Below are positions 341-26,113 of a stretch of DNA of 33,669 bases, one piece after another. The stretch comes from a bacterium (GTDB lineage: Bacteria > Blakebacterota > Blakebacteria > Blakebacterales > Blakebacteraceae). A program made the translations under genes and the position numbers. Below the pieces are notes generated by a model. That model was not told where the DNA came from. It saw only the letters and a program-made list of their open reading frames with translations, and ran no database searches. The first letter of the stretch is position 1, and every line of letters starts with the position of its first letter. Location: contig JALGVQ010000032.1 of assembly GCA_025774615.1 (NCBI GenBank), positions 1 to 33,669 on the forward strand, given 5' to 3'.

Positions 341-1549
341 ATGATGAGGAAAATCGGTCAAAGAGAGATCGTTTCGTTACTGACAGTCGCCGGCCTGATC
401 CTGGTCGGGGGAATCGTGGCCATAGCCGTGGACACCACTCCCGAATGGAAATACTACCAGTCTGAATTCCGCTGGCTCGTGGCTGAAGAGATGGGGGATG
501 TCGACCGTTCGCAGATCCCGCGAGGGATCCAGCAGATATACGTTGAGGATCTCGATCGGGTGGATCGCTGTACGAGCTGTCACCTGGGTATCGAGTGGAA
601 GGGCTTCGAGTCTGTCGAGCAGCCATGGACCACACATCCCCGTCCCGATCTCTTCAAGTCTCATCCGATCGGTGAGTATGGGTGCACCGTCTGCCACGGG
701 GGACAGGGACTCGCCCTGACCTATGCGGATGCCCACGGATTCGTCGAGCACTGGGAGGAACCGGTGCTCGGTGAGATTATCGGGAGCGAGTACGATCCCA
801 GAACACCACCTCCACTCCACGAAATCAGATGCAATTACTGCCATCGATATGAACGTACGACTCCCGGCATGTCCCGTATCAATCACGCCAAACAACTGGT
901 CCGTGACAAGGGATGCAAGATCTGCCACATCATCAACGGGTCGGGTGGTTCGCTGGGACCAGACCTGACGTTTGAAGGGGATAAGCACGCCGAGGGCTTC
1001 GATTTCAGTAACCTGGTGTCGAACCAGCAGACGGTCTTCAACTGGCATATCAAGCACTTCCAGTCTCCCCCGACGATCGTCCCGAACTCGATCATGCCGG
1101 AGATGAATTTTCAGTCAAGAGATACCCAGGCCCTGGCGATGCTGGCGATGAGCTGGCAGGATAACCGCGATCTGCCGTGGTCGTATTTTCCGGGGATCGA
1201 ACTCAGCGATGAGATGACTCCTGAAGAGATCGACAGGGACCGGAATATGCGCTCGGGTGACGGTGCATTCTTCGTTGAGAAGAGCTGCTTCGTCTGTCAT
1301 AGCATCAAGGCGTTCGATATCCAGTCACCGACCGACAAGGGTCCCGACCTCTCCCTCGCGCCTGATGATGTCCGGGCCCGGTTCAACAAGACCGTCGAGG
1401 AATTCCTGTTCGATCCCACCGGCACGATGAAGATCATTCTCGAGAGCCAGATCGTACTGACCGACGAGGAGAAGTGGGACGCGATCAACAGGATCATGAG
1501 AGCTTACGATATCGTGAAGAATCGAACTGAGGGTATACCACCCCGGTGA
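341..1549 (+). CDS. Five-heme cytochrome c, putative electron donor of the nos system
   Basis: This 402-residue protein has an N-terminal hydrophobic segment (residues 11-30) that is probably an uncleaved anchor, placing the rest in the periplasm. Five CXXCH heme-binding motifs are visible at residues 77 (CTSCH), 115 (CTVCH), 164 (CNYCH), 192 (CKICH) and 316 (CFVCH). The last two lie in segments that look like mono-heme cytochrome c modules, each with a downstream GPDL loop and, after heme 4, a MPEM that may provide a Met ligand. A GAGGAAG ribosome binding site precedes ATG 341/344. The stop abuts the nosZ ATG, and a cytochrome b-like gene lies just upstream. Clade II nos clusters commonly include b- and c-type cytochromes, so it probably carries electrons from quinol to NosZ. 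The specific partner is inferred. Confidence 0.85.
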   Translation: MMRKIGQREIVSLLTVAGLILVGGIVAIAVDTTPEWKYYQSEFRWLVAEEMGDVDRSQIPRGIQQIYVEDLDRVDRCTSCHLGIEWKGFESVEQPWTTHPRPDLFKSHPIGEYGCTVCHGGQGLALTYADAHGFVEHWEEPVLGEIIGSEYDPRTPPPLHEIRCNYCHRYERTTPGMSRINHAKQLVRDKGCKICHIINGSGGSLGPDLTFEGDKHAEGFDFSNLVSNQQTVFNWHIKHFQSPPTIVPNSIMPEMNFQSRDTQALAMLAMSWQDNRDLPWSYFPGIELSDEMTPEEIDRDRNMRSGDGAFFVEKSCFVCHSIKAFDIQSPTDKGPDLSLAPDDVRARFNKTVEEFLFDPTGTMKIILESQIVLTDEEKWDAINRIMRAYDIVKNRTEGIPPR

Positions 1550-3445
1550 ATGAGGGGTGTCCTGGTCGCCCTGCCGATGATCGCTCTGCTGGTGAGCGGA
1601 TTCGTTGGTTGCGGCAAGGCCCCGCCCCGGGGTGGAGCGAGGGGTGGTGGCACGCGGGGGACCGGTTCAGAGATCACCGACGCGGCGCTTGCCACCTATG
1701 TGGCTCCCGGAGACCTGGATGAGTACTACCTCTTCTATTCCGGTGGTCACAGCGGGCAGATATTCGTGGCGGGAGTGCCCTCGATGCGCCACATAGCCAC
1801 AATCCCCGTTTTCACTCCCTATCCGGGTACCGGGTACGGATTCGATGACGAGACACGTGAGATGCTCGGCGAGTACAGCTGGGGAGATTCTCACCACCCC
1901 GGACTGTCGGAGACTGACGGCGAATATGACGGCCGCTGGCTCTTCATCAACGACAATGCCAACGGTCGACTCGCCCGTATCGATCTGAGGGATTTCAAGA
2001 CAAAGCAGATTCTGAAGGTCCCGAACATCTCGGCGAACCATGGAAGTTCCTTTTTGAGTCCCAACTCCGAGTACGTCACAATGGCCACGCGGATGTCGGT
2101 GCCGTTCCCGCAGGGTACCTATGCGGATGTCACTGATTACGGCACGACCTACAAGGGTATCGTCGCCGGGATCAAGATCGATCCCGACTCGGGTGAGATG
2201 TCACTCGGGTGGGAGATCGTCGTTCCCCCCTTCAACTACGATCTGGGTGACGCCGGCAAGGGTCCGAGTGACGGGTATTTTTTCTGGACCTGTTACAATT
2301 CAGAGCGCGAGTTCATCGAGGGCGGTAAGCTGGAAGTGACAGCCTCACAGCGCGATCGGGACTACATTCTCATGGTCGACTGGAGAGCCGCCCAGCAGGC
2401 GGTCGACGCGGGTCGCGCACGGACGTATGCCGGCGCACCGGTCCTTGATCCGGATACTGTTTCAGGTCTCGCCTGGTACATCCCCCTGGCCAAGTCGCCT
2501 CACGGTGTGGATGTGAGTCCCGACGGGCGATGGATCGTCGGGTCGGGTAAACTGTCTCCGACCACCACGGTCTTCGATATCGAGAAGATCAAACAGGCGA
2601 TCCAGGACGGGGATTTCGAAGAGACTATCGACGGTATTCCGGTCCTGACCTACAACTCGGTGCGTGAGGCGGAGATCCCGGTCGGACTCGGCCCACTGCA
2701 CACCCAGTTCGACGGCAAGGGATATGCCTACACGTCCCTGTTCGTCGAGAGTGCGGTCGCGAAATGGAAACTGCCTCCCTACGAAGCCGGCGCCGACATG
2801 AACCAGTACGTGGTGGACAAGATCCCTGTGGCTTACAACATAGGTCACCTGGTGACTGCCGAGGGTGATTCCCGCTCACCGGATGGCAACTACCTCATAG
2901 CTCTCAACAAGCTGTCGAAGGGACGTCACCTCAGTGTAGGGCCGTCGATCCCCGAGTCGGCTCAGTTGATCGATATATCAGGCGACCGGATGAACCTGCT
3001 TTACGACGCTTTCACCGAACCGGAACCGCATTACGCATTGATGATCCGCGCCGACAAGATCGATCCGATCGAGGTCTACAGGCGGGACGATCCCGAATGG
3101 CCGCAGAATCCGGACGCGACCTGGGCAGTGGAGGACACCAGGGTAGAGCGCCGGGGCAGGACGGTGGAGGTGTGGATGCTTGCGGTGCGGTCGTTCTTCT
3201 CACCCGACGTGATCCGGGTGAACCAGGGTGACCGGGTGATCATCCATGTGACCAACATCGAACAGACACGTGACGAACTCCACGGTCTGGCGATCAATGA
3301 TTACAACATCAACATCGTCATCGATCCGGGTGAGACGAAAACGGTGACGTTCACTGCTGACAAGAGTGGAGTGTTCGCTTTCTACTGCACCAATTTCTGC
3401 AGTGCGCTCCATCAGGAGATGCAGGGATATCTGCTTGTCAGATAA
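1550..3445 (+). CDS. nosZ: Nitrous oxide reductase NosZ, clade II, putative lipoprotein
   Basis: NosZ reduces N2O to N2 in the periplasm. This 631-residue protein shows the seven-bladed propeller followed by a cupredoxin domain. The CuZ histidines are recognisable: H115 and H116 (DSHHPG), H164 (NHGSS), H318 (SPHGVD), H384 (PLHTQF), H433 (IGHL) and H494 (PHYA). The SKGRH segment near 456-460 carries the conserved lysine region. The CuA ligands are H578 and the cluster C613, C617, H621, M624 (FYCTNFCSALHQEM). There is no twin-arginine signal. Instead a Sec-type N-terminus ends in VGC with Cys21, a plausible lipobox, which suggests membrane tethering. The Sec-type export and the NosB neighbour place it in clade II. 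ATG 1550 directly follows the stop of the cytochrome c gene, so translation is likely coupled. Confidence 0.97.
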   Translation: MRGVLVALPMIALLVSGFVGCGKAPPRGGARGGGTRGTGSEITDAALATYVAPGDLDEYYLFYSGGHSGQIFVAGVPSMRHIATIPVFTPYPGTGYGFDDETREMLGEYSWGDSHHPGLSETDGEYDGRWLFINDNANGRLARIDLRDFKTKQILKVPNISANHGSSFLSPNSEYVTMATRMSVPFPQGTYADVTDYGTTYKGIVAGIKIDPDSGEMSLGWEIVVPPFNYDLGDAGKGPSDGYFFWTCYNSEREFIEGGKLEVTASQRDRDYILMVDWRAAQQAVDAGRARTYAGAPVLDPDTVSGLAWYIPLAKSPHGVDVSPDGRWIVGSGKLSPTTTVFDIEKIKQAIQDGDFEETIDGIPVLTYNSVREAEIPVGLGPLHTQFDGKGYAYTSLFVESAVAKWKLPPYEAGADMNQYVVDKIPVAYNIGHLVTAEGDSRSPDGNYLIALNKLSKGRHLSVGPSIPESAQLIDISGDRMNLLYDAFTEPEPHYALMIRADKIDPIEVYRRDDPEWPQNPDATWAVEDTRVERRGRTVEVWMLAVRSFFSPDVIRVNQGDRVIIHVTNIEQTRDELHGLAINDYNINIVIDPGETKTVTFTADKSGVFAFYCTNFCSALHQEMQGYLLVR

Positions 3446-3502
3446 CCGTCGATACCGGTCGGATAGCGCAGGCTGTCCGGCCGGTTGTCATGAATCGAGG
3501 CA

Positions 3503-4168
3503 ATGATGTCCGAAAAGTACAAGCGGATCATAGCCATACTGGACAGGCCGTTGACGACCAGAAGCAGAATCCTGGTAGCCACCGCAGCGCTGATCCTGAT
3601 TCCGACCTTCTTCGCTCCGCTGTGGCGCATGAGCTTCATGGCACAGCAGTATCCAGAGGGACTGGATCTCTACATATACAGCCACAGTCTGGTCGGTGGG
3701 GATCAAGGCAATGACCTCGTCGAGATCAATGTCCTGAATCACTACATCGGTATGGCTGAGCTCAGTGAGGAAGACTTCTCTGAACTGAAGTGGATCCCGC
3801 TCGTGATCGGTCTGATCGGTGTCCTCACACTCAGGGCGGCGGCGATCGGGTCGCTCAAATCGATACTCGATACCATGGTGATCTGTATCTACTTCGCCGG
3901 GTTCTCCCTGTGGAGTTTCTGGTACAAACTGAACTACTACGGGAAACATCTCGATCCTCGTGCGGCGGTGGAGGTCGCTCCATTCACACCGCCGGTCTTC
4001 GGATACAGGATGGTCGGTCAGTTCGAAGTGTGGTCTTATCCCGCCCTGGCCACATATCTTTTCGTCGCCTTCGGACTACTGCTCCTGGGCGGCTTCTGGT
4101 TCACCTGGCATCGGCCGGGTGAGAAAATGCTCGATCCGATACGGACGGGCAGTGGAGGTGAACAATGA
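3503..4168 (+). CDS. nosB: NosB-type integral membrane protein of clade II nos clusters
   Basis: This 221-residue membrane protein sits directly after nosZ, the position typical of NosB in clade II clusters. Hydrophobic segments lie near residues 23-41, 97-116, 121-140 and 180-200. The loop after the first helix carries the characteristic pattern PLWRMSFMAQQYPEGLDL followed by YSHSLVGG, then DLVEINVLNHYIGM, which I recognise from nosZ-linked membrane proteins. The His and Met residues in this loop make a metal-linked role conceivable, but its biochemical function is not established. ATG 3503 and ATG 3506 are both possible starts, and the GAGG at 3497-3500 favours the second. The 3' end overlaps the next gene by four bases (ATGA), so the two are translationally coupled. 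Confidence 0.85.
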   Translation: MMSEKYKRIIAILDRPLTTRSRILVATAALILIPTFFAPLWRMSFMAQQYPEGLDLYIYSHSLVGGDQGNDLVEINVLNHYIGMAELSEEDFSELKWIPLVIGLIGVLTLRAAAIGSLKSILDTMVICIYFAGFSLWSFWYKLNYYGKHLDPRAAVEVAPFTPPVFGYRMVGQFEVWSYPALATYLFVAFGLLLLGGFWFTWHRPGEKMLDPIRTGSGGEQ

Positions 4169-4665
4169 GTAAAGTGATAATCCCCGCCATGGCCTTCTGC
4201 CTGCTTGCCGGTTGTGGCGGCGGCAGCAACTCCTCAGGTGGATCAGCTCCAGCGGAGGACGCTCCCCTTCTTTCGGTCGAGGCACCGGAACCTCTCGCGG
4301 TACCTGAACCGAAGACGGTCCAGTCAGAGACGGACTGGGAAGCAAGGGTGCACAACAAGGAGATCGAGATCCTCCAGCTCATCAACATCATCAATCCCAT
4401 AGCGGTGTACATCACCGAGGGATTCAATCAGTATGGTGACCGGTTCAGTGAGGTGCTCCAGGAAGAGTGGGCGGATACCCAGGTGCAGTTGACGAAAGCG
4501 CTGACACTGTTCGATTCCTGCAAGGAACGCAAGGAAGCAGGATCGTTCGAGAAGCAGCTCTTCCTCGACATGGAGGAGGTATGGCAACTCCTGGTTAAAA
4601 CGGGAGTGGCCGGTGTCCGGTCAAAGACGATGGTGGATGCCGAGTTGAAGAGACTCATCGGTTAG
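4165..4665 (+). CDS. Small lipoprotein of the nos operon, unknown function
   Basis: This 166-residue product has a lipoprotein signal with the lipobox LLAGC (Cys17), followed by a Gly/Ser-rich and Pro/Glu-rich linker to about residue 55. The rest is a predominantly helical domain rich in Glu, Leu and Lys. I recognise no family. A strong GGAGGTG ribosome binding site precedes the ATG, which overlaps the nosB stop by four bases, so it is a true member of the operon. Location at the periplasmic face of a membrane is expected from the lipobox. A helper role in NosZ maturation or electron transfer is possible from context only. No CXXCH and no obvious copper motif are present. Confidence 0.8.
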   Translation: MSKVIIPAMAFCLLAGCGGGSNSSGGSAPAEDAPLLSVEAPEPLAVPEPKTVQSETDWEARVHNKEIEILQLINIINPIAVYITEGFNQYGDRFSEVLQEEWADTQVQLTKALTLFDSCKERKEAGSFEKQLFLDMEEVWQLLVKTGVAGVRSKTMVDAELKRLIG

Positions 4666-4673
4666 CTACGCAT

Positions 4674-4705
4674 TGCGGGGAGGGGAGATACTCCTGCTCC
4701 CCGCA
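4674..4705 (+). other. GC-rich RNA hairpin between lipoprotein gene and nosD
   Basis: A 9-bp perfect stem is formed by TGCGGGGAG (4674-4682) and CTCCCCGCA (4697-4705). An inner GGAG/CTCC pairing (4684-4687 with 4691-4694) gives a long imperfect hairpin. No T-run follows, so it is not a standard intrinsic terminator. It could be an mRNA processing or stability element that sets different expression for the upstream nosZ part and the downstream nosDFLY part. This function is inference. Confidence 0.55.
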
Positions 4706-4726
4706 TGACAGTTCAGAGGAAACACC

Positions 4727-6157
4727 ATGCCGATCACGGCACTTCTCGCGCTGCTTCTGGTCAATCAGACACCCTCAACGGATGTGCCTCGAGCAGTACA
4801 TGTTGTGAAGGCAGGGCAATCGATTGCGCTGGCTCTGCAGAAGGCCGCTCCCGGTGATACCATCCGCGTGACCACAGGAGAATACTATGAGAACCTGGTG
4901 ATCGATGTGCCAGTAGTTCTGACCGGTCCGGTGAACCGGACCGTACCGGTCGATCCTTCCGATCCATCTCCCCATTCCCGACCGATCATCCGTGGTGGAT
5001 ATGAAGGCAATGTCATCCACATCATCGCCCCGGGAACAGTCGTCGATGGGCTACAGGTGAGTGAAGCCGGACCACAGCTCACAAAGGATTACGCCTGCAT
5101 CCTCGTCGAGGCCGATTCAGTGAAGATACGGAATTGCGTCATAACCGAGCCGCTGCATGGGATATACGTCAAAGCGGGCATTCACGCCGTGATAGAGGAT
5201 AACGTCATCAGGGGGCGACTCGATCTGATCGAGTCAGATCGCGGCAACGGTATCCATCTCTGGAACACGAAGAGGAACTTCGTGCTCCGGAACGAGATCG
5301 TCGATGTCCGGGACGGCATATATTTCTCATTTGCTGATTCGACACTGATCGAAGGCAACCATATACACCAGGTCAGATATGGCCTTCACTATATGTATTC
5401 GAACTACAACTCGTTCCGGGACAACCTGTTCGAACGGAATGTGGCCGGTGCCGCCCTCATGTATTCACATGATATCGAGTTCACCCGGAACACCTTCGCC
5501 CGCTGTCGTGGGTTCCGAGCCTATGGTATCCTCTATCAGTCGATGGACCACGTTACAGCGCGCGATAATCTGGTCCTCGACAACAGTCGCGGTATATTCA
5601 TGAACAACGCCGGCAACAATCTGATCGAAGGAAATGATGTGGTGGATAACGACCTGGCGATCCAGCTCAACGGTGGCTGCGATGGCAACATATTCGTCGG
5701 GAACAACTTCATCAATAATCTGAGTTCCCTGCTGCTCGATGTCAGTGACCGGGAAACAGCCTGGTCGGACAGAGGGAGAGGGAATTACTGGAGTGATTAT
5801 GATGGCTACGATCTGGATCGGGATGGGATAGGAGATATTCCGTACAGCATCCAGAATGTCTTCCAGATCCTGGAATCACGGGTTCCCGAAGTCAGGTTCT
5901 ACCTGCTGAGCCCGGCGGCCCGGATACTCGAACTTGCTGAGAAATCCCTGCCGATCCTGAATCTCGGTGATGCCCGGGATCCTCTACCCGTCATGAGACC
6001 GATCGTCAACAATGAAGTGCCGTGGCAGATGGTGGCCGGCAGCAACGCTCAGGGGAGCGTGATCTGGGCAACTGTCTATTTGATTCTTACCATTGCCCTG
6101 TTCGCCCTGTTGATGTTCTGGAGCCGCAGACAAGTTTCTGTGGGGAGCGCTCCGTGA
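4727..6157 (+). CDS. nosD: NosD, periplasmic right-handed beta-helix protein for CuZ assembly
   Basis: NosD works with the NosFY ABC transporter in maturation of the CuZ centre of NosZ. This 476-residue protein starts with a short signal sequence (MPITALLALLLVNQ). It then shows many beta-helix turns with the repeated N-x-I/L pattern of carbohydrate-binding / copper-binding NosD repeats (for example IRNCVITEP, IEDNVIRG, IEGNHIHQV, IEGNDVVDN). The ending NYWSDYDGYDLDRDGIGD followed by PY is typical of NosD. A C-terminal transmembrane segment lies at about residues 445-465 with a short basic tail, so it is anchored to the inner membrane. The AGAGGA ahead of ATG 4727 serves as ribosome binding site. 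Its stop overlaps the GTG start of nosF. Confidence 0.94.
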   Translation: MPITALLALLLVNQTPSTDVPRAVHVVKAGQSIALALQKAAPGDTIRVTTGEYYENLVIDVPVVLTGPVNRTVPVDPSDPSPHSRPIIRGGYEGNVIHIIAPGTVVDGLQVSEAGPQLTKDYACILVEADSVKIRNCVITEPLHGIYVKAGIHAVIEDNVIRGRLDLIESDRGNGIHLWNTKRNFVLRNEIVDVRDGIYFSFADSTLIEGNHIHQVRYGLHYMYSNYNSFRDNLFERNVAGAALMYSHDIEFTRNTFARCRGFRAYGILYQSMDHVTARDNLVLDNSRGIFMNNAGNNLIEGNDVVDNDLAIQLNGGCDGNIFVGNNFINNLSSLLLDVSDRETAWSDRGRGNYWSDYDGYDLDRDGIGDIPYSIQNVFQILESRVPEVRFYLLSPAARILELAEKSLPILNLGDARDPLPVMRPIVNNEVPWQMVAGSNAQGSVIWATVYLILTIALFALLMFWSRRQVSVGSAP

Positions 6158-7074
6158 ATCCCTTGATCACTCTTTCGGGATTCGAAAAGCGGTTTGGAGA
6201 GGTGCGCGCCGTTCATCCACTCGATCTGGAGATCGTTGCGGGCGAGTCGTTTGCCCTGCTCGGGCCGAACGGTGGTGGCAAAACAACCATTCTCCGGGCC
6301 CTCGTGGGTCTTCACACTCCCACTGCAGGCAGGGTGATCATCGACGGGCACGACATCGTCGCGGAACCCGATTCGGTCAGGGATCTCATCTCCTACGTAC
6401 CCCAGAGGGTCGGTATGCCCGGTCTGCTCACCGGCAGGGAAGTGGTGACGTTCTTCTCTCAATTGAAGGGAACTGCTGATGAGAGGATAGGTGAGGTTCT
6501 CGATCTCTTCGCGCTGACCGAGAGCGCTGACCGATATACCCGGGAGTTCTCCGGCGGGATGATGCAGCGGCTCGGGCTTGCAGTTGCGTTCCTTCAGGAC
6601 GTCCCTCTCTACATCTTCGATGAACCGACCCTTAATCTTGACGCGCTCGGTATCGAGTGTCTTCAAAATCTCCTGAAGGCGAAACAACAGAACGGAACGA
6701 CAGTGGTGTTCGCCTCGCACAGTCTCCACTATGCCATGCAGCTTGCGGATCGGGTGGCTCTGCTTGTTGAAGGACGTCTGGTGAGGGTGGAAGAGGTTCC
6801 GCTCTTCAGGGATACGATCATCCGGGAGATGCGCGTGCGTGTGGTGCTCGATCATTCCACCGATGAGATGATCGTAGCCGCCCGCTTGGCAGGGGCTGAG
6901 TCTCTCGACCAGAACGGGAAACAGATCTGGTTCCGGGCGATTCCCGAAAAACGGCTCGATGTGTTCCGGGCCATCGAGGGGGCAGGGGGGAATATCAGGG
7001 AGATCCACACGGAAACCCCTGATTGGGAAGCACTGATCAGGGATTATCTCGACTCTGAAGAGGAGAGTGGATGA
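6154..7074 (+). CDS. nosF: NosF, ABC transporter ATPase of the NosFY system
   Basis: This 306-residue ATPase energises the NosFY transporter needed for copper-sulfur centre assembly in NosZ. Numbering from GTG 6154, the Walker A is GPNGGGKT (37-44), the Q-loop Gln is near 84, the signature is FSGGM (132-136), the Walker B is LYIFDEPT (152-159) and the H-loop His is near 189. About 100 extra C-terminal residues follow the ABC fold, as is usual for this subfamily. An in-frame ATG lies upstream at 6022, inside nosD. I prefer GTG 6154 because it forms a GTGA overlap with the nosD stop, has GGGGAG 6-7 bases upstream, and gives the usual family N-terminus (ITLSGFEKRFG). Confidence 0.93.
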   Translation: MNPLITLSGFEKRFGEVRAVHPLDLEIVAGESFALLGPNGGGKTTILRALVGLHTPTAGRVIIDGHDIVAEPDSVRDLISYVPQRVGMPGLLTGREVVTFFSQLKGTADERIGEVLDLFALTESADRYTREFSGGMMQRLGLAVAFLQDVPLYIFDEPTLNLDALGIECLQNLLKAKQQNGTTVVFASHSLHYAMQLADRVALLVEGRLVRVEEVPLFRDTIIREMRVRVVLDHSTDEMIVAARLAGAESLDQNGKQIWFRAIPEKRLDVFRAIEGAGGNIREIHTETPDWEALIRDYLDSEEESG

Positions 7075-7829
7075 TGACCGGCGTCAACAAGGGCAGCAGA
7101 ATCACGGTGGCCGGGATCCTCTGTATCCTGGTGTCATGCGCGGGTGAAGTCCAGCCACGGGTAGAAGCAGGGTTGGATTCCTGTGATTACTGCGGGATGA
7201 TCATCGACCAGGTGAATCAGGCATGTGGTTATGTGCTCGATCGACAGTTCGTGACGTTCGATTCACCTGTCTGTCTGCTCTACAGTCTTGAGTCGCTTGA
7301 AAAAGAGGGCTCCTCACTCCCTTCAGCGATCTGGTTTGCTGACTACGGGGACGGCACCTTTCACCCTGCCGAGACCACATCGTTCCTGCTGACCAGCCAT
7401 ATACCAACGGTCATGGGCATGGAGGTCGTGTGTTTCGGCAATCAGGAAGCCGTCGTCAACGTGAGCGAACATGAAGATGAGATCATCACCGACTGGCTGG
7501 GATTCCGGACCCTGCGTGGAACGCCTGATGTGATCGTGGAACTGCAGGTCGGTCCGGATGGGATGGTACCTCAGGTGGTCGAAGTGAAGAAGAGTGAGCT
7601 GATCCTCTTCAGGGTGACAGGTACTGCATCGGGAGAGGAACGTACCTTCACCATCACCGGATACCCTGAGATCGGGCCGATCACGATTCCTGCAGATGGT
7701 ACCACAATTGAATTCCGGCTGATGGCGACCAGGCCGGGAGCTGGTTTTCCGATTACGATTGGAGAGGGTGAACCACTCGGTATGATGAAAGTGGAAGGTC
7801 CCCACACAGAGGATGAAGCAGCGCGGTGA
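7071..7829 (+). CDS. nosL: NosL-like copper-binding lipoprotein with an added C-terminal beta domain
   Basis: NosL is a periplasmic lipoprotein that supplies Cu(I) to NosZ. The N-terminal half has a lipobox ending at Cys23 (ILVSC), then the NosL hallmark CDYCGMII with C38, C41 and M43, followed by FVTFDSPVCLL and FHPAETTSFL, both typical of the NosL core. The core ends near residue 147. Residues 153-245 form an extra, beta-rich domain (VIVELQVGPDG..., VVEVKKSEL, RTFTITG) that resembles a cupredoxin or Ig-like fold but has no visible His or Cys copper ligands. At 252 residues it is clearly longer than common NosL proteins. ATG 7071 overlaps the nosF stop (ATGATGA, a second ATG at 7074), and its own stop overlaps the next GTG. 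Confidence 0.9.
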   Translation: MMTGVNKGSRITVAGILCILVSCAGEVQPRVEAGLDSCDYCGMIIDQVNQACGYVLDRQFVTFDSPVCLLYSLESLEKEGSSLPSAIWFADYGDGTFHPAETTSFLLTSHIPTVMGMEVVCFGNQEAVVNVSEHEDEIITDWLGFRTLRGTPDVIVELQVGPDGMVPQVVEVKKSELILFRVTGTASGEERTFTITGYPEIGPITIPADGTTIEFRLMATRPGAGFPITIGEGEPLGMMKVEGPHTEDEAAR

Positions 7830-8653
7830 ATCAGAACATCTGGGTGATCAGCAGGCAGGAGTTCACTCTCAACCGGAGAAATCGGTGGGTAGTCTCCTTT
7901 GCGGTACTCTTTGCCATCCTGACCCTGCTCATCGCCTGGTTCGGCATGATCACATCCGGCTACACCGGATTTCAGGATTTCATCAGAACATCGGCCAGTA
8001 TCATCAACCTGGGGGGATTCCTGATCCCCCTGTTCGCGCTCCTGCTCGGGGTATTCAGTTTTCTGACGAACCCGGAATACCTCGAACTGCTGACGACTCA
8101 GCCAGTACCGAGGTCCCAGGTGTTGCTCGGGAGATATCTCGGACTGGTGATGACCGTGCTGGGAGCTTCGATCCTCGGTTTCGGTCTTCCCGGTATTGTG
8201 ATCGCCCTGGTGATCGGGGTCGAGGGCGCACTCAGTTACCTTCTGGTGATCTGCTATTCATTCCTGCTTGCGATAGCATTCACTGGTCTTTCGGTTCTCA
8301 TCTCGCTCCTCTCAGGACGCCGACAGATTGCCCTCGGTATTGCCCTCGCGGTATGGATCTTCTACGAATTGCTCTATGGCATCCTGATACTCGGTACGAC
8401 GCTCTACCTTTCACCCGCTACCCTGAAAGTGGTCCTGTCGCTCGGCCTGCTCGGTAATCCGATCGATATCGCACGGGTACTCTCTCTGCTCCAGGTGGGA
8501 GGACCGCATCTCTTTGGCCCTGCGGGAGCTACTCTGATCAAGATGACCGGCTCCTCCTTCCTTGCCTCGGTGATCGGGCTGGCGGGTCTCCTGATCTGGG
8601 TGGTGGTGCCGGTACTCATCTCCATCAGGGTATTCAATAAACAGGATCTCTGA
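7826..8653 (+). CDS. nosY: NosY, ABC-2 type permease of the NosFY system
   Basis: This 275-residue protein has about six hydrophobic segments and the ABC-2 permease layout. A cytoplasmic N-terminus (ISRQEFTLNRRNRW) precedes the first helix, and a paired set of helices surrounds the segment GVFSFLTNPEYLELLTTQPV, which matches the NosY motif where P-R-x-x-LLGRYLG follows. It pairs with NosF as the membrane channel, presumably exporting a sulfur species needed for CuZ. The GTG at 7826 overlaps the nosL stop (GTGA). It ends the recognisable nos cluster, and no nosR or nosX is seen downstream, which is usual for clade II. Confidence 0.93.
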   Translation: MNQNIWVISRQEFTLNRRNRWVVSFAVLFAILTLLIAWFGMITSGYTGFQDFIRTSASIINLGGFLIPLFALLLGVFSFLTNPEYLELLTTQPVPRSQVLLGRYLGLVMTVLGASILGFGLPGIVIALVIGVEGALSYLLVICYSFLLAIAFTGLSVLISLLSGRRQIALGIALAVWIFYELLYGILILGTTLYLSPATLKVVLSLGLLGNPIDIARVLSLLQVGGPHLFGPAGATLIKMTGSSFLASVIGLAGLLIWVVVPVLISIRVFNKQDL

Positions 8654-8659
8654 TCGGTT

Positions 8660-8703
8660 CGACTTTTAAGGCTCTGAATACTATCGTTAAAGTCGCCGAT
8701 AGT
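8660..8703 (+). promoter_or_regulatory. Two mutually exclusive hairpins in the leader of the deiodinase-like gene
   Basis: CGACTTT (8660-8666) can pair with AAAGTCG (8689-8695), and ACTATCG (8680-8686) can pair with CGATAGT (8697-8703). The two 7-bp stems interlock, so only one can form at a time. This is the design expected for an RNA switch or attenuator, or the sites may be overlapping protein operators. No T-run follows the second stem. The region lies between the end of nosY and the start of the selenoprotein gene. Confidence 0.4.
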
Positions 8704-8730
8704 TACTATCAACACGAGGTATGCAACTGC

Positions 8731-9498
8731 ATGAAGTTATTGGCAACGAATCTGCTGCTTCTTGGATTTCTTGCAGTTTCGGTTCCTGGATGCGGTGAGA
8801 AGACCACCAGTCCCGACGAGATGGAAGATCCGCAGGGAACAACCCTGACCCTTTTGCCCGAATCCTCTCTGACTCCGGGATGTGTCAACTGGCCTGCTGA
8901 GAACTTTTCATTGAGCAACAGGGCGGGCCAGCTGTCAACAGGTGTGGAGACGGGTGACACAGCAATCGAATTCACACTAAAGGATATCGAGGGCACAAGC
9001 TATTCCCTCTCCTCCCTGCTTGAGACAAAACCTGTTTTACTGGTGTTCGGGTCTTATACGTGACCGCCATACAGGTTCAGGGTTCCTGAGCTTCTCGATC
9101 TGGCAAGCAAGGCTTTCGACGACACCAGTACGTTCGCTGATAACGTTCACTTCGTACACATATACATTTTAGAGCCGCACCCGAAGAGCCCCGATCTGAG
9201 TCCGTACAGCGCTACTGTTTCTGAAAGCGGCTACAGCACAAAGTACCAGCCGGTGACGTATGAAAACCGCGTCACTCATGCCACGGATATGGCCGGGTAT
9301 CTGAACAATACGCAACTTATGCTGGTCGATGACATGGATCCTCTCGAGCGGAACAATCCGATGTGGTGCACGTACGGACCCGCTCCCAACAGCGGCTACC
9401 TGTTAAGCATGACGGGGAAAGTGATAGTATCGCAGAAATGGCTGGACGTATCTGCTATGGAGAATGCCATCAACGAACTCATTGCCGGAACCCGTTGA
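8731..9498 (+). CDS. Deiodinase-like thioredoxin-fold selenoprotein, lipoprotein (UGA at 9061-9063 read as selenocysteine)
   Basis: The frame from ATG 8731 meets TGA at 9061, but the same frame continues open to TGA 9496-9498. Read through, it gives 255 residues with Sec at position 111. The N-terminus is a lipoprotein signal (VPGC, Cys21). Residues 81-110 are a thioredoxin-like strand-loop (FTLKDIEGTSYSLSSLL, PVLLVFGSYT), and the Sec motif reads FGSYTUPPYR. Iodothyronine deiodinases have FGSxTUPP at their catalytic Sec, and the following YILEPHP (145-151) matches the family's conserved E-x-HP segment. Established deiodinases remove iodine from aromatic substrates. In bacteria the substrate is unknown, and a peroxiredoxin-like or dehalogenating reductase role is possible. 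A SECIS-like hairpin follows the UGA. A premature stop or sequencing error is the alternative, made unlikely by motif and hairpin. Confidence 0.87.
9073..9093 (+). promoter_or_regulatory. Bacterial SECIS-like hairpin of the deiodinase-like gene
   Basis: AGGTTCAGG (9073-9081) pairs with CCTGAGCTT (9085-9093) as a 9-bp stem with two G-U wobbles, closing a GUU loop (9082-9084). The loop G lies 19 nt after the UGA, inside the 16-37 nt range and with a G at the loop start, as known for bacterial SECIS elements bound by SelB. It lies within the coding region, as bacterial SECIS elements do. Confidence 0.8.
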
Positions 9499-19747: not shown

Positions 19748-19961
19748 CTGACATGGTATGCTAGTGCCCTGTCACGCAACAACCGTGGTATTCGATCGAC
19801 GTCGTATCCCGACCGGCAGCGTTGCGCTTCCTCGCCATAGCCACCGCTATGCCTCGTCGCCGCGCCTTGCAGGCCGGACCCGACATCACTCTCGGTGCCG
19901 ACGTTTGTCACCTGACATGGCACTAGTGCCCTGTCACGCAACAACCGTGGTATTCGATCGA
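19748..19961 (+). repeat. Intergenic repeat with 162-bp period and palindromic core
   Basis: An identical 39-bp segment beginning CTAGTGCCCTGTCACG occurs at 19761-19799 and again at 19923-19961. Each copy is preceded by ACCTGACATGG, so a 162-bp unit is present about 1.3 times. At the second copy TGACATGGCAC / TAGTGCCCTGTCA (19913-19936) is a near-perfect palindrome with the 12-bp core GGCACTAGTGCC. Between copies CATAGC-CACC-GCTATG is another small inverted repeat. It looks like a dispersed, REP-like intergenic element, not a gene. Confidence 0.8.
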
Positions 19962-19979
19962 AAAAGAGAAGGGAGCAGC

Positions 19980-21017
19980 ATGACGGGTGCCATGAAGGAA
20001 TGGACACCACCGCAGGAGTGGGACAGGATCACCACGATCGATGTCCACACAGCAGGTGAGCCTCTGCGCATCATCACCGGCGGTATGCCGAAACTCGAGG
20101 GCGAATCGATCCTGGAACTTCGTCGGTATCTGAAGAAGAACTTCGATCATATCAGGACGACCCTCATGTGGGAACCGAGAGGTCACCGGGAGATGTATGG
20201 CTGTGTCATTACCCCGCCCTTCGAACGAGGTTCCGACTTCGGCATCCTCTTCATGCATAACGAGGGGTACAGCACCATGTGCGGACACGGGATCATCGGC
20301 ATCGGCACGGTTGCTCCAGAGACAGGGCTCGTCCCCCTGGAAGAGCCGGAGACGGTGATGGTGATCGATACCCCGGCAGGACAGGTGACCGCGTACGCCC
20401 AGGTCGTCGAGGGACACGTGAGGAGCGTACATTTTCACAACGTACCTTCCTTTGTCTCCGGGCTGGATGAGAGGGTGAAGGTGCAGGGGATAGGTTGGGT
20501 GACCTATGATCTGGCATTCGGCGGAGCGTTCTATGCGTTTGTCCGGGCAGAGGACTTCGGGTTCAGTTGTATCGTGGAAGAACAGAACGACCTGATCGCC
20601 GCAGGGATGGCCATCAAGGAGGCAGTCACCGGGAAGGGGGGGATAGAGCATCCTGCCGAAGAAGACCTCAACTTTTTGTACGGAACGATCTTCATCGCTC
20701 CACCCCGGTCAGAAAATGCCGATAGCCGGAACGTCTGCATTTTCGCCGATGGTCAGGTCGACCGATCGCCTACCGGGACCGGCGTGAGCGGTCGGATGGC
20801 GATTCACTATGCCCGGGGTGAGATCAGTATCGGAGAACCACTCATCATCGAAAGTATCGTAGATACCACCTTCACCGGAACGGTTGTGGAACCGGTGAAT
20901 TTCGGCGGTTATTCTGCGGTCATCCCCGATGTGCGGGGTAGCGCCAGCATCACTGGCCGCCACGAGTTCCTCATCGATCCCGATGACCCGCTGCGTGAGG
21001 GTTTCTTCCTGGGATGA
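19980..21017 (+). CDS. Trans-3-hydroxy-L-proline dehydratase (proline racemase superfamily)
   Basis: This 345-residue enzyme belongs to the proline racemase superfamily: TIDVHTAGEPLR at the N-terminus, catalytic C101 in STMCGHGI, and a second active-site segment DRSPTGTGVSGR. Racemases and 4-hydroxyproline epimerases have Cys at the second site (DRSPCGTGT). Here it is T265, the established signature of trans-3-hydroxy-L-proline dehydratase, which makes pyrroline-2-carboxylate. It is cytoplasmic, with no signal peptide. The frame is open upstream through the repeat, but ATG 19980 with GGGAG nine bases upstream gives the family N-terminus. The promoter must lie within or next to the repeated element. 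Its task is probably collagen-type hydroxyproline catabolism, in line with the nearby secreted peptidases. Confidence 0.9.
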   Translation: MTGAMKEWTPPQEWDRITTIDVHTAGEPLRIITGGMPKLEGESILELRRYLKKNFDHIRTTLMWEPRGHREMYGCVITPPFERGSDFGILFMHNEGYSTMCGHGIIGIGTVAPETGLVPLEEPETVMVIDTPAGQVTAYAQVVEGHVRSVHFHNVPSFVSGLDERVKVQGIGWVTYDLAFGGAFYAFVRAEDFGFSCIVEEQNDLIAAGMAIKEAVTGKGGIEHPAEEDLNFLYGTIFIAPPRSENADSRNVCIFADGQVDRSPTGTGVSGRMAIHYARGEISIGEPLIIESIVDTTFTGTVVEPVNFGGYSAVIPDVRGSASITGRHEFLIDPDDPLREGFFLG

Positions 21018-21121: not shown

Positions 21122-22132
21122 CTAGTTGTTACCACCACCTGTCGCTACGGTGGGGTAACCGGCCGCGCCACTGAATACTGTGGTGTTCAGCACGGTTGCA
21201 TTGGTTGTCCAGCCCATCATCCCGAACTTCATGTTCTTGGCATCGTAGCCGAGTGTGTTCAGGATAGCGGTGGCAACACCGCCGGTGTGACCGGTGTAGC
21301 AGTAGACTACGATATCAGCGTCAGGGTCGAGCATGACCAGCTTGTCAAGATCACCGATCTCCGAAAGGGAGATGTTGATCGCGCCGGGCAGGTGACCGAG
21401 AGCGTAGTGATCAGCCGAACGGACACTGATGATCACCGGATCGTTGCTGGTGTCACCGTCGTTCAGGTTGTCGAAGACAGCCTGCGCCGTGATGAGCGGT
21501 GTCCAGGAGGTGTTAGTGATCCAGCGGGCGATGGCGGCGGCGGTGACCGTCATCGGATCGTCACTCGTGGAGACCTCGAGGTCGGGTGCATCGTAGATCT
21601 CGGTGATGGTGTTGACCGTGGTCTCAGTAGCGGCCTGCAGAGAGGCGGCTTCCGTCCAGATCGTGGTCGCCACGACGGTCGGGTCATCCGACCAGTTCAT
21701 CATGCCCCACTTCATGTTCTGGACATTCCAGCCAAGCAGGCTGAGAGAGGTGGCGGCGAGACCACCCGTGTGGCCGGTGTAGCAGTAAGCCACCATCGGG
21801 GTCGCCGTCGAGGGCAACAGAGCCAGGTTCGTGGCACTGGTGACGTCCCGCCACGGGATGTTGATGGCCCCTTCCACGTGACCGAGGTCGTAGGCGCTTG
21901 CTGCGCGCACGCTGACGATGGTCTTGGTCTTGGCGCCGGTCACGTCGTCGTAGACAGCAGACGGAGCGATCACGGGCGATGGGTCACCAGCCAGGTAGTC
22001 GGAGACGACCTGCTGAACGATCTCCCAATCGGACAGTCCGGCTGCAACCGGGTCATCATCACAAGCTGTCAGTGAGAACATGAGCAGGGCTGTGGGCAAC
22101 AGCACCAGCATTCTCTTCCAGTTGAACTTCAT
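21122..22132 (-). CDS. Double-rhodanese lipoprotein, partner of the multiheme selenocytochrome
   Basis: This 336-residue product has a lipobox SLTAC (Cys24) and two rhodanese domains. Each has a catalytic Cys in the unusual loop YCYTGHTGG (C117 and C278), the first domain with VSVRAASAYDLGHVEGAINIP and the second with ISVRSADHYALGHLPGAINI. The duplicated GHVEGA/GHLPGA and NMKWGMM/NMKFGMM segments show internal duplication. Rhodaneses carry sulfur (or selenium) as a Cys persulfide. Location is at the periplasmic or outer membrane face. Its ATG overlaps the stop of the upstream multiheme cytochrome gene by four bases. From memory, such rhodanese lipoproteins accompany multiheme cytochromes in Geobacter extracellular electron-transfer clusters (ExtH with ExtKL). 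A strong terminator follows. Confidence 0.9.
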   Translation of the reverse strand: MKFNWKRMLVLLPTALLMFSLTACDDDPVAAGLSDWEIVQQVVSDYLAGDPSPVIAPSAVYDDVTGAKTKTIVSVRAASAYDLGHVEGAINIPWRDVTSATNLALLPSTATPMVAYCYTGHTGGLAATSLSLLGWNVQNMKWGMMNWSDDPTVVATTIWTEAASLQAATETTVNTITEIYDAPDLEVSTSDDPMTVTAAAIARWITNTSWTPLITAQAVFDNLNDGDTSNDPVIISVRSADHYALGHLPGAINISLSEIGDLDKLVMLDPDADIVVYCYTGHTGGVATAILNTLGYDAKNMKFGMMGWTTNATVLNTTVFSGAAGYPTVATGGGNN

Positions 22133-23490
22133 TTACCTTTTCCTCCTTGTGTACTTGTTACCGGCGCTGCCGGGGGGTCTACCAATAAAGAAGTGTTGGC
22201 TGTGATCTCCTCCGCGACAGCCTTGCCGTCGGCGATCAGACTGTCGAGATAGGCCGAGGTCAGGAAGAGACCCGGCTCATCATGACAGTTGGTGCACGAT
22301 TCGGTCTGGGGCGTGTTGCGGCGGATATTGTGCGGTGTCGCGTAGGTCCACGAGGGCAGAGCACTGTAGTTGGACAGTGTGATATCGTATGCCTCGTACA
22401 TCTCCGGATACACCGGCACGTGTCGCAGGAGTACGTAATCCCACGGACGGTCTGAAGATTTGATCGGGTTTCCACCGATCCGGAAGTCGATCTCCGACGG
22501 GAACTGGAGACCATGTGACTTCCCGTCACTGGCACCCACATGACACTGGTAGCAGTTCTTGTACGGCTGTGAGTGACAGACGGGGCAATCGACGGTCTGC
22601 GCGTGCAGGGCGTGGTGACTGATGCCGTCATCGCCGGCGGCTGGACCGGGGTGACAGTCATCACAGGCCGGGCGCCCGAAGGCATCCCGGCGATGATCGG
22701 GGGTGACTCCTCCACCGTGCAGTTCCAGACCGGTATGGCAGTCCATACAGTTCATGCCGGCGAGGTAGTGTTTGTCGGGGGAGAGGCCGGGGTGAACACC
22801 CTTGTACTCGTCATTGATGCGGCTGCCGTGGCAGGCGGTGCACTGACCGTTCTGATTCGGTGTCGAAAGGTATTCGTGCTCGTTCATCAGGCCGCCGTTC
22901 ACACTCGTGGGGCGGCTGATATGACACTGGCCGCAGGTGGCGTGACAACCGGAACAGTGGTCTCCGAATGCGGTCATCCACCCTGATCCCTCAGCAGTCA
23001 GCCCACTGCGTGTCTCAAAGGTGCTGATATATCCCTGCATGGTATAGTGAAGGCTGTTCTCGAACTCCGTCGCCTTGTTCCGGTGACAAGAGGCGCAGAC
23101 GTTCTGATCGACCGGTCCGTCTGATGGATCGGCGATGAGCGTCGCGTGGGCAGCTTCCTTGCTGTTCGTACCCGCGACTCCCTCGTGACAGTCGTAGCAG
23201 GTCAGGCCGGAGTGGCTGTCACCGACGAATTCCTCACTCAGCATGAACTTCTCGTACACCTCCAACGGAGGCGCAGCACCACCTCAGCCTTCGCCCGAAT
23301 TCTCACCGCCCGAGTCATCATCAGATGCGGCGGTAGCCACGAGCTGGTCCTGATTCAGATGACATGAGGTGCAGTTGTTGAGTGCGAGAGTGGATTCCGT
23401 CGGGCTCTCATCGTCACAATATGTCAGCATCGACACGCACGCCATGGCGAGCACCGCGAGCGGTAGGTACAAAGGCCGCTTTCGAAGCAT
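22129..23490 (-). CDS. Multiheme cytochrome c selenoprotein (11 CXXCH; UGA at 23284-23286 read as selenocysteine)
   Basis: From ATG 23490 the frame meets TGA at 23286-23284 and then continues open to 22129. Read through, it is 453 residues with Sec at position 69 in GEGUGGAAPPLE. The part before the UGA has the signal sequence (LAMACVSMLTYC, possible lipoprotein) and the first heme motif CTSCH. The part after it has ten more (CYDCH, CASCH, CSGCH, CGQCH, CTACH, CMDCH, CDDCH, CPVCH, CYQCH, CTNCH) but no signal of its own, so the two halves make sense only as one protein. A SECIS-like hairpin follows the UGA. It should act in periplasmic or outer-membrane electron transfer, and Sec could bind a heme or metal or form a redox pair; this is inference. 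It is operonic with the rhodanese lipoprotein. Confidence 0.87.
23255..23275 (-). promoter_or_regulatory. Bacterial SECIS-like hairpin of the multiheme selenocytochrome gene
   Basis: On the minus strand TGCGCCTCC (23275-23267) pairs with GGAGGTGTA (23263-23255) as a 9-bp stem with two G-U wobbles and a GUU loop (23266-23264). The loop G is 18 nt after the UGA. Stem length, wobble positions (6 and 8 from the loop) and loop sequence equal those of the hairpin in the deiodinase-like gene. Confidence 0.8.
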
Positions 23491-23637: not shown

Positions 23638-24498
23638 CTAATATTCAGGCATCTCGATTTTCTGGCGGCTGACGATATCGAACCAGTCCCCCGGCTCGAG
23701 TACGGAATAATGAACAGTGTCGCCGTACGCAAACGTACGTCGGGCGTCGTGTATAGCTACCTTGCCGGGACCGATTACTTCAAAGAGATCGCCCATGACT
23801 ACAACAGCCGTGCCCTCTGATATCCCGATACCGAGAAGTTCCGGATAGGTCGTAATAACCTCATACAGATCGGTCCACCGTCCGCGGGTGTCGATATGCT
23901 GGTCGATGGCGCTGTTCTTCAGGAATCCAAAGCTTTCTTCATGCCCGGGAGATATCATGATCTGGTTTCCCTCCGGCGCTCCGCGGGCAAGGTATGATCC
24001 CTGGATGGTTGCTCCGGCCGATGACCCGCCGATAACGCCATCCCGGGAGAGGACATTGTGGAACTCCTGATAGGTCAGGGTGTTCAGGTACGCGTCGGTC
24101 AGTCGCCACTGGCGACCACCATTAAACCAGACGCCGGTGGCCTCTCTCAGATCTTTTACGAACTCCTCGGTGTTTGCCACTGTCGGATCTATGGTATGGA
24201 GCATCTTCACCTGTTCCACCCCGCGCTCGCGCCAGGTTGAAACGACCCGTTCCTCATCGTATTCCTCTCTGCCACCCGCCGTGGGAACGACGATCAATCT
24301 GGCCTCTGATGCACCCCCTGCCAGTTCAAGGAAACGACCCCAGACATCTTCTCCGACGCGGCCGCCACCGACGATGACAAGCGCGCCGTTCTGCGGCCCA
24401 TACTGAGGCACAGTAGTGCAGGATGAGACGACCACCGATATGAGGACGATCGCGATCGGGAGAAAGAGGGGGCGAAGTGTACGGCGTGACTCGCGCAT
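23638..24498 (-). CDS. Cyanophycinase-like / peptidase S51 family lipoprotein
   Basis: Starting at ATG 24498 the product has 286 residues. It opens with a lipoprotein signal (LISVVVSSC), then ALVIVGGGRVGEDV typical of cyanophycinase-type S51 proteins. The nucleophile serine lies in GGSSAGATIQG, and further conserved pieces are FNGGRQWRLTDAYLNT and IDQHIDTRGRW. The family comprises serine exopeptidases acting on Asp-containing dipeptides or cyanophycin. The lipobox implies extracytoplasmic action. Longer starts up to 24672 exist, but GGAG six bases ahead of ATG 24498 and the lipobox position decide for the short one. It is divergent from the fucosidase gene. Confidence 0.88.
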   Translation of the reverse strand: MRESRRTLRPLFLPIAIVLISVVVSSCTTVPQYGPQNGALVIVGGGRVGEDVWGRFLELAGGASEARLIVVPTAGGREEYDEERVVSTWRERGVEQVKMLHTIDPTVANTEEFVKDLREATGVWFNGGRQWRLTDAYLNTLTYQEFHNVLSRDGVIGGSSAGATIQGSYLARGAPEGNQIMISPGHEESFGFLKNSAIDQHIDTRGRWTDLYEVITTYPELLGIGISEGTAVVVMGDLFEVIGPGKVAIHDARRTFAYGDTVHYSVLEPGDWFDIVSRQKIEMPEY

Positions 24499-24670
24499 GA
24501 AGATCTCCATGTTCGGTTCCACATCGTGAACGATCCGGAATGGGAAGATTCTATTACCATCATGTTTGTAATATGATTGTCCCATGTTGTGAAGGGGCTT
24601 TTCAGAATAGTGAGTCCCCTTGCGGTCAGGAGCAGACAGAGCAGGGAGGATCCTTGTGGGTATCCATACC

Positions 24671-26113
24671 ATGATCAGGGTGATGAGGAACGGTCTTGTA
24701 ATCTGTATTGCCGGTATCGGGCTGACTCTTTCAGTCTCAGCACAGCAGTACGACCCGGGGGAACGGGAGTCCGATCCACTTGTTCTCGAGAAACTGGAGT
24801 GGTTCCAGGACCAGAAGTTCGGGTTGATGATGCACTGGGGACCATACAGTCAGTGGGGGGTTGTCGAGTCATGGTCGATCTGCTCGGAGGATGAGCCGTG
24901 GTGTCGTCGCTCGATGAGCAATTACGTCGACTATGTCCGTGCCTATCACGCGCTTCAGAAGACGTTCGATCCGGTGGAGTTCGATCCGGAGACCTGGGCG
25001 GAGGCCGCCCGATTCGCCGGGATGCGCTACGTGGTGTTCACCACCAAGCATCACGACGGATTCTCCATGTTCGATACCGCCCTGACTGACTATGCGATCA
25101 CCGATCCGGCCACCCCCTTCAGTTCTGATCCCCGGGCGAATATAACGAAGGAGATATTCGACGCCTTCCGGGCTGAGGGATTCGGGACCGGAGTCTATTT
25201 CTCAAAGGCCGACTGGCACTCGAACGACTACTGGGCCGAGGAGTGGGCGACACCCGATCGGAATGTCAACTACAGCATCGAGAAGTATCCTGAACGGTGG
25301 CAGCGCTTTGTCGATTTCACCTTCGACCAGCTCGAGGAACTGATGACCGGATACGGGCCGGTCGATATTCTCTGGTTCGATGGGGGATGGGTCAGACCGA
25401 TCGAGACACTCACCGATGAGAGCCGTCCGTGGGGTGGTCCACGCCCGCAGGATCAGGACATCGACATGCCCCGTATCGCGGAGATGGCTCGCTCACATCA
25501 GCCCGGCCTGATCATGGTCGATCGCACGGTCCACGGGCGCTACGAGAACTACCGCACCCCTGAACAGCGGGTACCCGACAGGCCTCCTGATTTTATCTGG
25601 GAGACCTGTATGACCATGGCCGGCTCCTGGTCGTACAACGAGAACGACACCTATAAACCGACCAGACAGCTCATTCACCTGCTGGTGGATATCGTCGCCA
25701 AGGGCGGTAATCTCCTGCTGAATGTCGGGCCGAGTCCGGAAGGTGCATTCCACCCGGAGGCGCTGAACAGACTGAGTGAGATAGGTGAATGGATGGAGAT
25801 CAACTCCACGGCTATTTACAATACCCGGGCGATCGCTCCTTATAAGGAAAAGAACATCTGCTTCACGGTTCTCCCCGACGGAACCGTACATGCCGTCTAT
25901 CTGGCCGGGGAGAACGAGACTGCGCCACCGGCTGAGATCCATCTGACATTGTTCCGGCCGCGACGGGGCAGCCGGGTCATGATGCTCGGGGTCGATGAGC
26001 CGCTGCAGTGGGATGAGACACCTGGCGGGATCGTGATCCGGGTTCCGGATGGAGTGAGAGAGAATCCTCCGTGCGAACACGCCTGGACCTTCGTTATTTC
26101 GGTCGGGGAGTGA
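24671..26113 (+). CDS. GH29 alpha-L-fucosidase, secreted
   Basis: This glycoside hydrolase family 29 enzyme of 480 residues removes alpha-L-fucose from glycans. It has a signal peptide (LVICIAGIGLTLSVSAQQ). Conserved pieces include WFQDQKFGLMMHWGPYSQWG, YVVFTTKHHDGFSMFD, and the catalytic nucleophile region DILWFDGGW with D237 from this start. GNLLLNVGPSPEG is also a strong family signature. The C-terminal 90 residues form the beta-sandwich domain. ATG 24671 and ATG 24683 are both plausible; the second has CAGGGTG just ahead and would shorten the signal by four residues. The gene converges with the esterase-sialidase gene, and the two together suggest deglycosylation of host-like or algal glycans. 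Confidence 0.93.
   Translation: MIRVMRNGLVICIAGIGLTLSVSAQQYDPGERESDPLVLEKLEWFQDQKFGLMMHWGPYSQWGVVESWSICSEDEPWCRRSMSNYVDYVRAYHALQKTFDPVEFDPETWAEAARFAGMRYVVFTTKHHDGFSMFDTALTDYAITDPATPFSSDPRANITKEIFDAFRAEGFGTGVYFSKADWHSNDYWAEEWATPDRNVNYSIEKYPERWQRFVDFTFDQLEELMTGYGPVDILWFDGGWVRPIETLTDESRPWGGPRPQDQDIDMPRIAEMARSHQPGLIMVDRTVHGRYENYRTPEQRVPDRPPDFIWETCMTMAGSWSYNENDTYKPTRQLIHLLVDIVAKGGNLLLNVGPSPEGAFHPEALNRLSEIGEWMEINSTAIYNTRAIAPYKEKNICFTVLPDGTVHAVYLAGENETAPPAEIHLTLFRPRRGSRVMMLGVDEPLQWDETPGGIVIRVPDGVRENPPCEHAWTFVISVGE

Follow-up and report, generated by a model that had tools for sequence, protein, structure and literature searches.

Very few cytochromes have been proposed to be selenoproteins. An earlier proposal concerned ExtKL of Geobacter, a multiheme cytochrome with a selenocysteine (Sec) residue (PMC5877670, PMC6148476, PMC13188914). 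ExtKL belongs to the extHIJKL operon, which encodes a rhodanese lipoprotein, the Sec cytochrome and a beta-barrel porin, and loss of extI impairs the reduction of selenite and tellurite (PMC5877670). A database-annotated Sec member of TIGR04315 was listed in a 2026 review (PMC13188914). In SoxY, a Cys arm with the sequence GGCGG carries covalently bound sulfur intermediates (PMC6067878, PMC5336275). The gene analysed here lies on a bacterial DNA stretch of 33,669 nucleotides, referred to as the window, and encodes a multiheme cytochrome c that is predicted to contain Sec. A preliminary description of this gene regarded Sec in a multiheme cytochrome as unusual, which holds in that few cytochromes have been proposed to carry it, but ExtKL is a proposed precedent.

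The cytochrome gene was located at positions 22129 to 23490 of the window, on the minus strand; the preliminary description had given the same coordinates without a strand. Read from 23490 to 22129, the frame comprises 453 codons (453 amino acids with Sec69, stop TGA at 22131-22129) and contains a single in-frame TGA, codon 69, at 23286-23284 (minus strand) in the sequence GEG-U-GG. Counting in the translation reproduced the eleven CXXCH motifs reported before: one follows the signal peptide and precedes the TGA (residues 40 to 44, positions 23359 to 23373, minus strand), and ten lie beyond it. These motifs, together with an N-terminal signal-like stretch and a Pfam Cytochrome_C7 match above the cut-off, are the features of an exported multiheme c-type cytochrome. 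As had also been described, the C-terminal part has no good start of its own. The start listed for the open frame downstream of the TGA was a TTG at 23265, which is not a credible internal start because it sits in the loop of a predicted SECIS element and no signal sequence was found behind it. Just upstream of the cytochrome gene, a cyanophycinase-like protein is encoded at 23638-24672 (minus strand); its match was below the curated cut-off, and it was not in the clusters common to the homologous loci.

Homologs of the cytochrome were found in several phyla. Outside the window, 60 assorted genomes yielded three homologs with one interrupting TGA each. A scan of the GTDB contig collection added four MAGs, three of Phycisphaerae and one titled Deltaproteobacteria (labelled Myxococcota in the tree), and in each of these the TGA is at the same site. 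With profile searches, which covered whole phyla and 386 assorted genomes, the set grew to 44 Sec-form genes, i.e., that of the window and 43 homologs. The gene was present in 5 of 5 genomes searched from the phylum of genome G053, in 10 of 39 from that of G009, and in 16 of 40 from that of G384 (15 with Sec forms and one with a Cys form). No homolog was found in a search of plasmids. One genome, G435, carried two different Sec-form copies (L084 and L097), which fell in different branches of the tree.

The TGA occupied the identical column in 44 of 44 Sec-form genes, which is far beyond chance. The consensus around the site was G-[E/G]-G-U-G-G. In an alignment of 43 Sec forms plus the Cys form (44 rows), Gly was found at -3 in 40, at -1 in 43, at +1 in 41 and at +2 in 43; position -2 was Glu in 26 or Gly in 15, and position +4 was Val in 37. 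The first CXXCH, which precedes the Sec, was invariant in the 45-row family alignment. Since this N-terminal region, first heme included, is shared by the homologs, none of them starts after the TGA, and the homologs beginning past the UGA with a signal peptide of their own that had been raised as an objection were not found. Under the standard code the frame ends at codon 69, so that the TGA could be a real stop, either separating a short secreted monoheme lipoprotein from a downstream cytochrome or marking a broken gene. This is highly improbable, as the TGA column is shared by 44 genes with the frame and the heme motifs conserved on both sides, one homolog has Cys instead, a covarying hairpin and the decoding machinery are present, and the downstream part has no start followed by a signal peptide. 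Real stop, pseudogene and downstream restart were all rejected by this conservation. Gene calling with the standard code would split such genes at the UGA, and the family would thus be hidden.

Directly behind the UGA, a SECIS-like hairpin of 9 bp was predicted at positions 23255 to 23275 (minus strand) by folding, covariation and synonymous-codon tests. In the window's gene it begins nine bases after the UGA, and its GUU loop starts at +18. Among the first 29 genes, the hairpin could be drawn in 20 with a G-first three-base loop (GUU, GGU, GGC or GUC) at +18; in seven, the loop is GGA and lies at +21. In 14 distinct sequences, 97.6% of the cells were paired vs. 33-58% for slid partners, and all six pairs had changed on both sides, with 24 double-change cells compared with 6.8 after shuffling. 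The stability relative to synonymous-codon shuffles that keep the protein gave a mean z of -1.83 for the 29 genes (combined p of 4e-13, not corrected for relatedness), whereas 346 control stretches taken from these genes averaged -0.10. The hairpin tests ignore relatedness in general, and the set of sequences spans deep branches of the tree. Because the stability exceeds that of the synonymous-codon shuffles, selection appears to act on the RNA hairpin itself. The statistics were weak in some members (e.g., L023, z of -0.33), and single sequences alone are therefore insufficient to prove a SECIS element.

The distribution of the Sec decoding machinery was compared with the forms of the cytochrome. 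The window's own genome contains a tRNA-Sec (66.2 bits on contig C184, confirmed by ARAGORN) and a SelB (321 bits on C262), both above the cut-offs. tRNA-Sec or SelB was present in 38 of the 39 Sec-form genomes tested, of which 25 were searched for both and 14 for SelB only; the SelB of G093, split over two contigs, was counted as present. No SelB above the cut-off was found in the Sec-form genome G433 (89% complete, 320 contigs). One homolog, L091 from genome G442, has Cys exactly at the Sec column (ESGG-C-GGDA) and no in-frame stop, and SelB above the curated cut-off was not found in G442 (98% complete, about 30 contigs). Two related genomes, G346 and G022, encode a cytochrome that lacks the whole Gly arm (in G022 the gene is split over two contigs), and neither tRNA-Sec nor SelB was found above the cut-offs in G346 (95% complete) or G022 (99% complete). 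Components tested for were thus above the cut-off in 0 of 3 genomes with a Cys or arm-less form. The association of the machinery with the Sec form gave a Fisher p of 3.5e-4, ignoring relatedness.

The UGA might instead be read through as another residue, e.g., Trp, by readthrough or a reassigned code. We consider this barely credible, since the cytochrome gene itself ends in TGA, the substitute found in a homolog is Cys and not Trp, and both a SECIS-like hairpin and tRNA-Sec are present. We estimate a probability of roughly 97% that UGA codon 69 is decoded as Sec by way of the putative SECIS hairpin directly behind it, judging from the comparative sequence evidence. The proposal of the preliminary description that the UGA stands for Sec was thus borne out by the shared TGA column, the Cys homolog, the covarying hairpin and the machinery; alignment at position 69, which it had suggested as a check, gave Sec or Cys flanked by conserved Gly, and the lack of Sec machinery in the genomes of close relatives that it had raised as an objection was not observed.

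The N-terminus of the cytochrome is a signal peptide that runs up to a likely lipid-attachment residue, Cys18 (positions 23437 to 23490, minus strand). The window's own lipobox is weak. The cytochrome is probably a lipoprotein, because the Cys18 column holds a non-heme Cys in 39 of 45 members and lipobox-like sequences are found in many of them. The Sec is carried by a Gly-rich arm of about residues 63 to 75 (positions 23266 to 23304, minus strand), delimited by the position frequencies and missing as a whole from the homologs in machinery-free genomes. In the family alignment, the Sec was the only broadly conserved Cys or Sec besides the heme cysteines and the lipid-attachment Cys. With no other broadly conserved free cysteine, the Sec should pair with a heme or metal, or with something outside the protein. 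At reference residues 398-402 of alignment A3, what reads as CX3CH (e.g., CYDNCH) replaces the last CXXCH in 32 of 45 members, which have Cys outside any CXXCH in both column 398 and column 402. Heme counts based on CXXCH are therefore probably underestimates there. A structure model built from 45 sequences, without hemes, reached a pLDDT of 81 and a pTM of 0.80, and one built from 8 sequences was poor (pLDDT 42). In the 45-sequence model the confidence of the arm was about 57 (residues 61 to 70), below most of the heme-binding core, and Foldseek found no fold match for the model in the PDB.

The Sec could be an axial heme ligand or a metal ligand that tunes a redox potential, with the rhodanese encoded next to the cytochrome being a functional neighbour only. 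The arm lies near hemes 1 and 2 in the sequence, and a metal partner is possible because no intramolecular thiol partner is broadly conserved. On the other hand, flexible Gly flanks would be unusual for a fixed ligand, the modelled arm is less confidently placed than most of the heme-binding core, and homologs without a neighbouring rhodanese have lost the whole arm and kept the hemes. We regard the ligand role as quite unlikely.

The rhodanese gene lies directly downstream of the cytochrome gene, at positions 21122 to 22132 on the minus strand, and its ATG overlaps the stop of the cytochrome (ATGA). It encodes a two-domain protein (Pfam PF00581) with two CYTGHTG active-site loops and a lipoprotein-like signal. 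A rhodanese gene on the same strand adjoined the cytochrome in all 37 Sec or Cys loci examined, mostly within about 250 bp; it was usually downstream and was upstream in three loci. In L021, L022, L074 and L109, the merged match coordinates of cytochrome and rhodanese interleave, and the gene map placed the two directly adjacent in three of them. A second type of rhodanese was found in four loci, in one of these (G355) by a weak match only. For the arm-less forms, no rhodanese was found next to the gene in G346 or within the part of G022 that was read.

Five to seven loci have a longer cluster, which adds a possible outer-membrane beta-barrel, cytochromes with 7-12 hemes and a very large cytochrome whose membrane domain is of the b561 type. 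The possible beta-barrel (c4, a weak OmpA_membrane match) was found in five homologous loci. To judge by their sequences, the extended clusters look like an outer-membrane electron conduit. L061 (G384:C1:365000-384000) encodes at 774-8959, beside the Sec cytochrome, a possible beta-barrel, a 12-heme and a 4-heme cytochrome, as well as proteins of 19 and 11 hemes that have b561-type domains; this cluster is a candidate conduit of this kind. In L060, a small cytochrome c554-type protein is encoded at 8220-8768, not far from the Sec cytochrome; it gave a match to the model for a UshA-like (seleno)protein, in the C-terminal part of that model.

Next to the window's own cytochrome gene there was no beta-barrel and there were no further cytochromes, and no Sox-like or sulfur-respiration gene was seen beside its operon. 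A proline racemase or hydroxyproline epimerase-like frame is predicted from its sequence at 19758-21017 (plus strand), between the rhodanese gene and a desuccinylase-like gene. Elsewhere in the window, at 341-8653 (plus strand), there is a cluster of the nitrous oxide reductase (nos) type, with a cytochrome c and a NosZ-like protein with propeller and cupredoxin domains (Pfam), followed by putative NosD-, NosF-, NosL- and NosY-like genes.

We tentatively favour, at somewhat less than even odds, a relay in which sulfane sulfur or selenium passes from the rhodanese to the Sec on a swinging arm, linked to the redox chemistry of the hemes. The cytochrome would be exported and probably lipid-anchored, with the Sec on a flexible Gly-rich arm that follows the first heme motif and precedes the other hemes. 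The co-encoded rhodanese lipoprotein would load sulfane sulfur (or selenium) on its own Cys and hand it to the Sec, giving a selenosulfide-type intermediate. The hemes would then reduce and release the Sec-bound species, which is more likely, or oxidise it, with electrons passing between them and either the respiratory chain or a conduit in the outer membrane. Delivery of sulfur or selenium by the rhodanese to the Sec, the nature of the substrate and the direction in which electrons flow are inferred. An intermolecular relay is suggested because a Gly-flanked Sec without an internal thiol adjoins an invariant rhodanese. Of the two roles first suggested for the Sec, the invariant gene pairing favours that of a partner of the rhodanese Cys, with the heme or metal ligand as a rival. 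The rhodanese could also serve another step, e.g., the delivery of reduced selenium.

Reduction is considered somewhat likelier than oxidation for two reasons: the b561-type membrane parts of the extended clusters could take electrons from the quinol pool, and the ext cluster, an analogous system, has been linked to the reduction of selenite and tellurite (PMC5877670). The system could be a selenite or tellurite reductase module like Geobacter ExtHIJKL, in which Sec and hemes would reduce selenite and the rhodanese would handle selenodiglutathione-like or elemental Se. It shares parts with the ext cluster, namely the rhodanese lipoprotein, the Sec multiheme cytochrome and, in some loci, a possible beta-barrel and further cytochromes; a weak similarity to ExtM was seen in 7 of 8 members, and the extI phenotype (PMC5877670) points the same way. 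However, the family gave no match to the ExtKL model, the window's gene has no adjoining beta-barrel or other cytochromes, and retention of the cytochrome across many phyla argues for a substrate commoner than selenite. This reading seems rather unlikely.

The association of a Sec-bearing arm with a rhodanese, seen at all the Sec or Cys loci examined, leads from the relay to a testable hypothesis, the handling of sulfane sulfur or selenium by a multiheme cytochrome, and the pairing suggests a new coupling of sulfur or selenium chemistry to bacterial electron transport. A broader proposal, put forward with more reserve, is that these proteins form a multi-phylum class of respiratory cytochromes in which Sec on a SoxY-like glycine arm would take sulfane sulfur or selenium from the rhodanese, as part of an unrecognised module of sulfur or selenium respiration or oxidation at the outer membrane.

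The SoxY arm may be the closest functional analogue of the Sec arm. Both have a Gly-flanked chalcogen residue (GGCGG in SoxY, G-E/G-G-U-G-G in the family and SGGCGG in the Cys homolog), but the SoxY motif is C-terminal, whereas the family has a Sec-bearing arm within the N-terminal third of a cytochrome. A Pfam search found no SoxY domain in the window's cytochrome. The likeness is one of analogy only, between non-homologous proteins that share a five-residue motif at different places.

Among solved structures, the best profile match of the cytochrome was PDB 1sp3, which we take to be octaheme tetrathionate reductase (OTR), with an E value of 7e-10. This partial match spans about 150 columns and is largely due to the spacing of the CXXCH motifs, and the number of hemes and the N-terminus differ. 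Weak profile similarity was found to ExtM and ExtN (best 8e-13, for ExtM, which was seen in 7 of 8 members), but the window's protein scored 36.6 bits vs. a curated cut-off of 800. To our knowledge, no Sec has been described for ExtM or ExtN. TIGR04315, the curated model for octaheme tetrathionate reductase, was not matched by any of 8 family members (NCBIfam, E <= 1), and no curated family model was found for the new family.

A literature search, with preprints and most subscription papers outside its scope, gave no description of the family, nor was it found in the 2026 inventory of prokaryotic selenoproteins (PMC13188914). The NF040886 model of ExtKL (cut-off 250 bits) had no match on the window's gene or on 8 family members at E <= 1, and membership in ExtKL was rejected on this ground and on that of the differing architecture. 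ExtKL and the new cytochrome are alike in being multiheme c-type cytochromes with a predicted Sec at an in-frame UGA and a rhodanese lipoprotein nearby (PMC5877670, PMC6148476). They differ in that ExtKL has five CXXCH motifs, compared with 8-11 in the new family, and in that its Sec follows the pentaheme part, whereas here the Sec follows the first heme motif and precedes most of the hemes. The new family is also mostly found in other lineages, and in the window it shares with the extHIJKL operon the rhodanese but not the beta-barrel beside the gene. It looks to be an undescribed family and an addition to the small set of Sec cytochromes.
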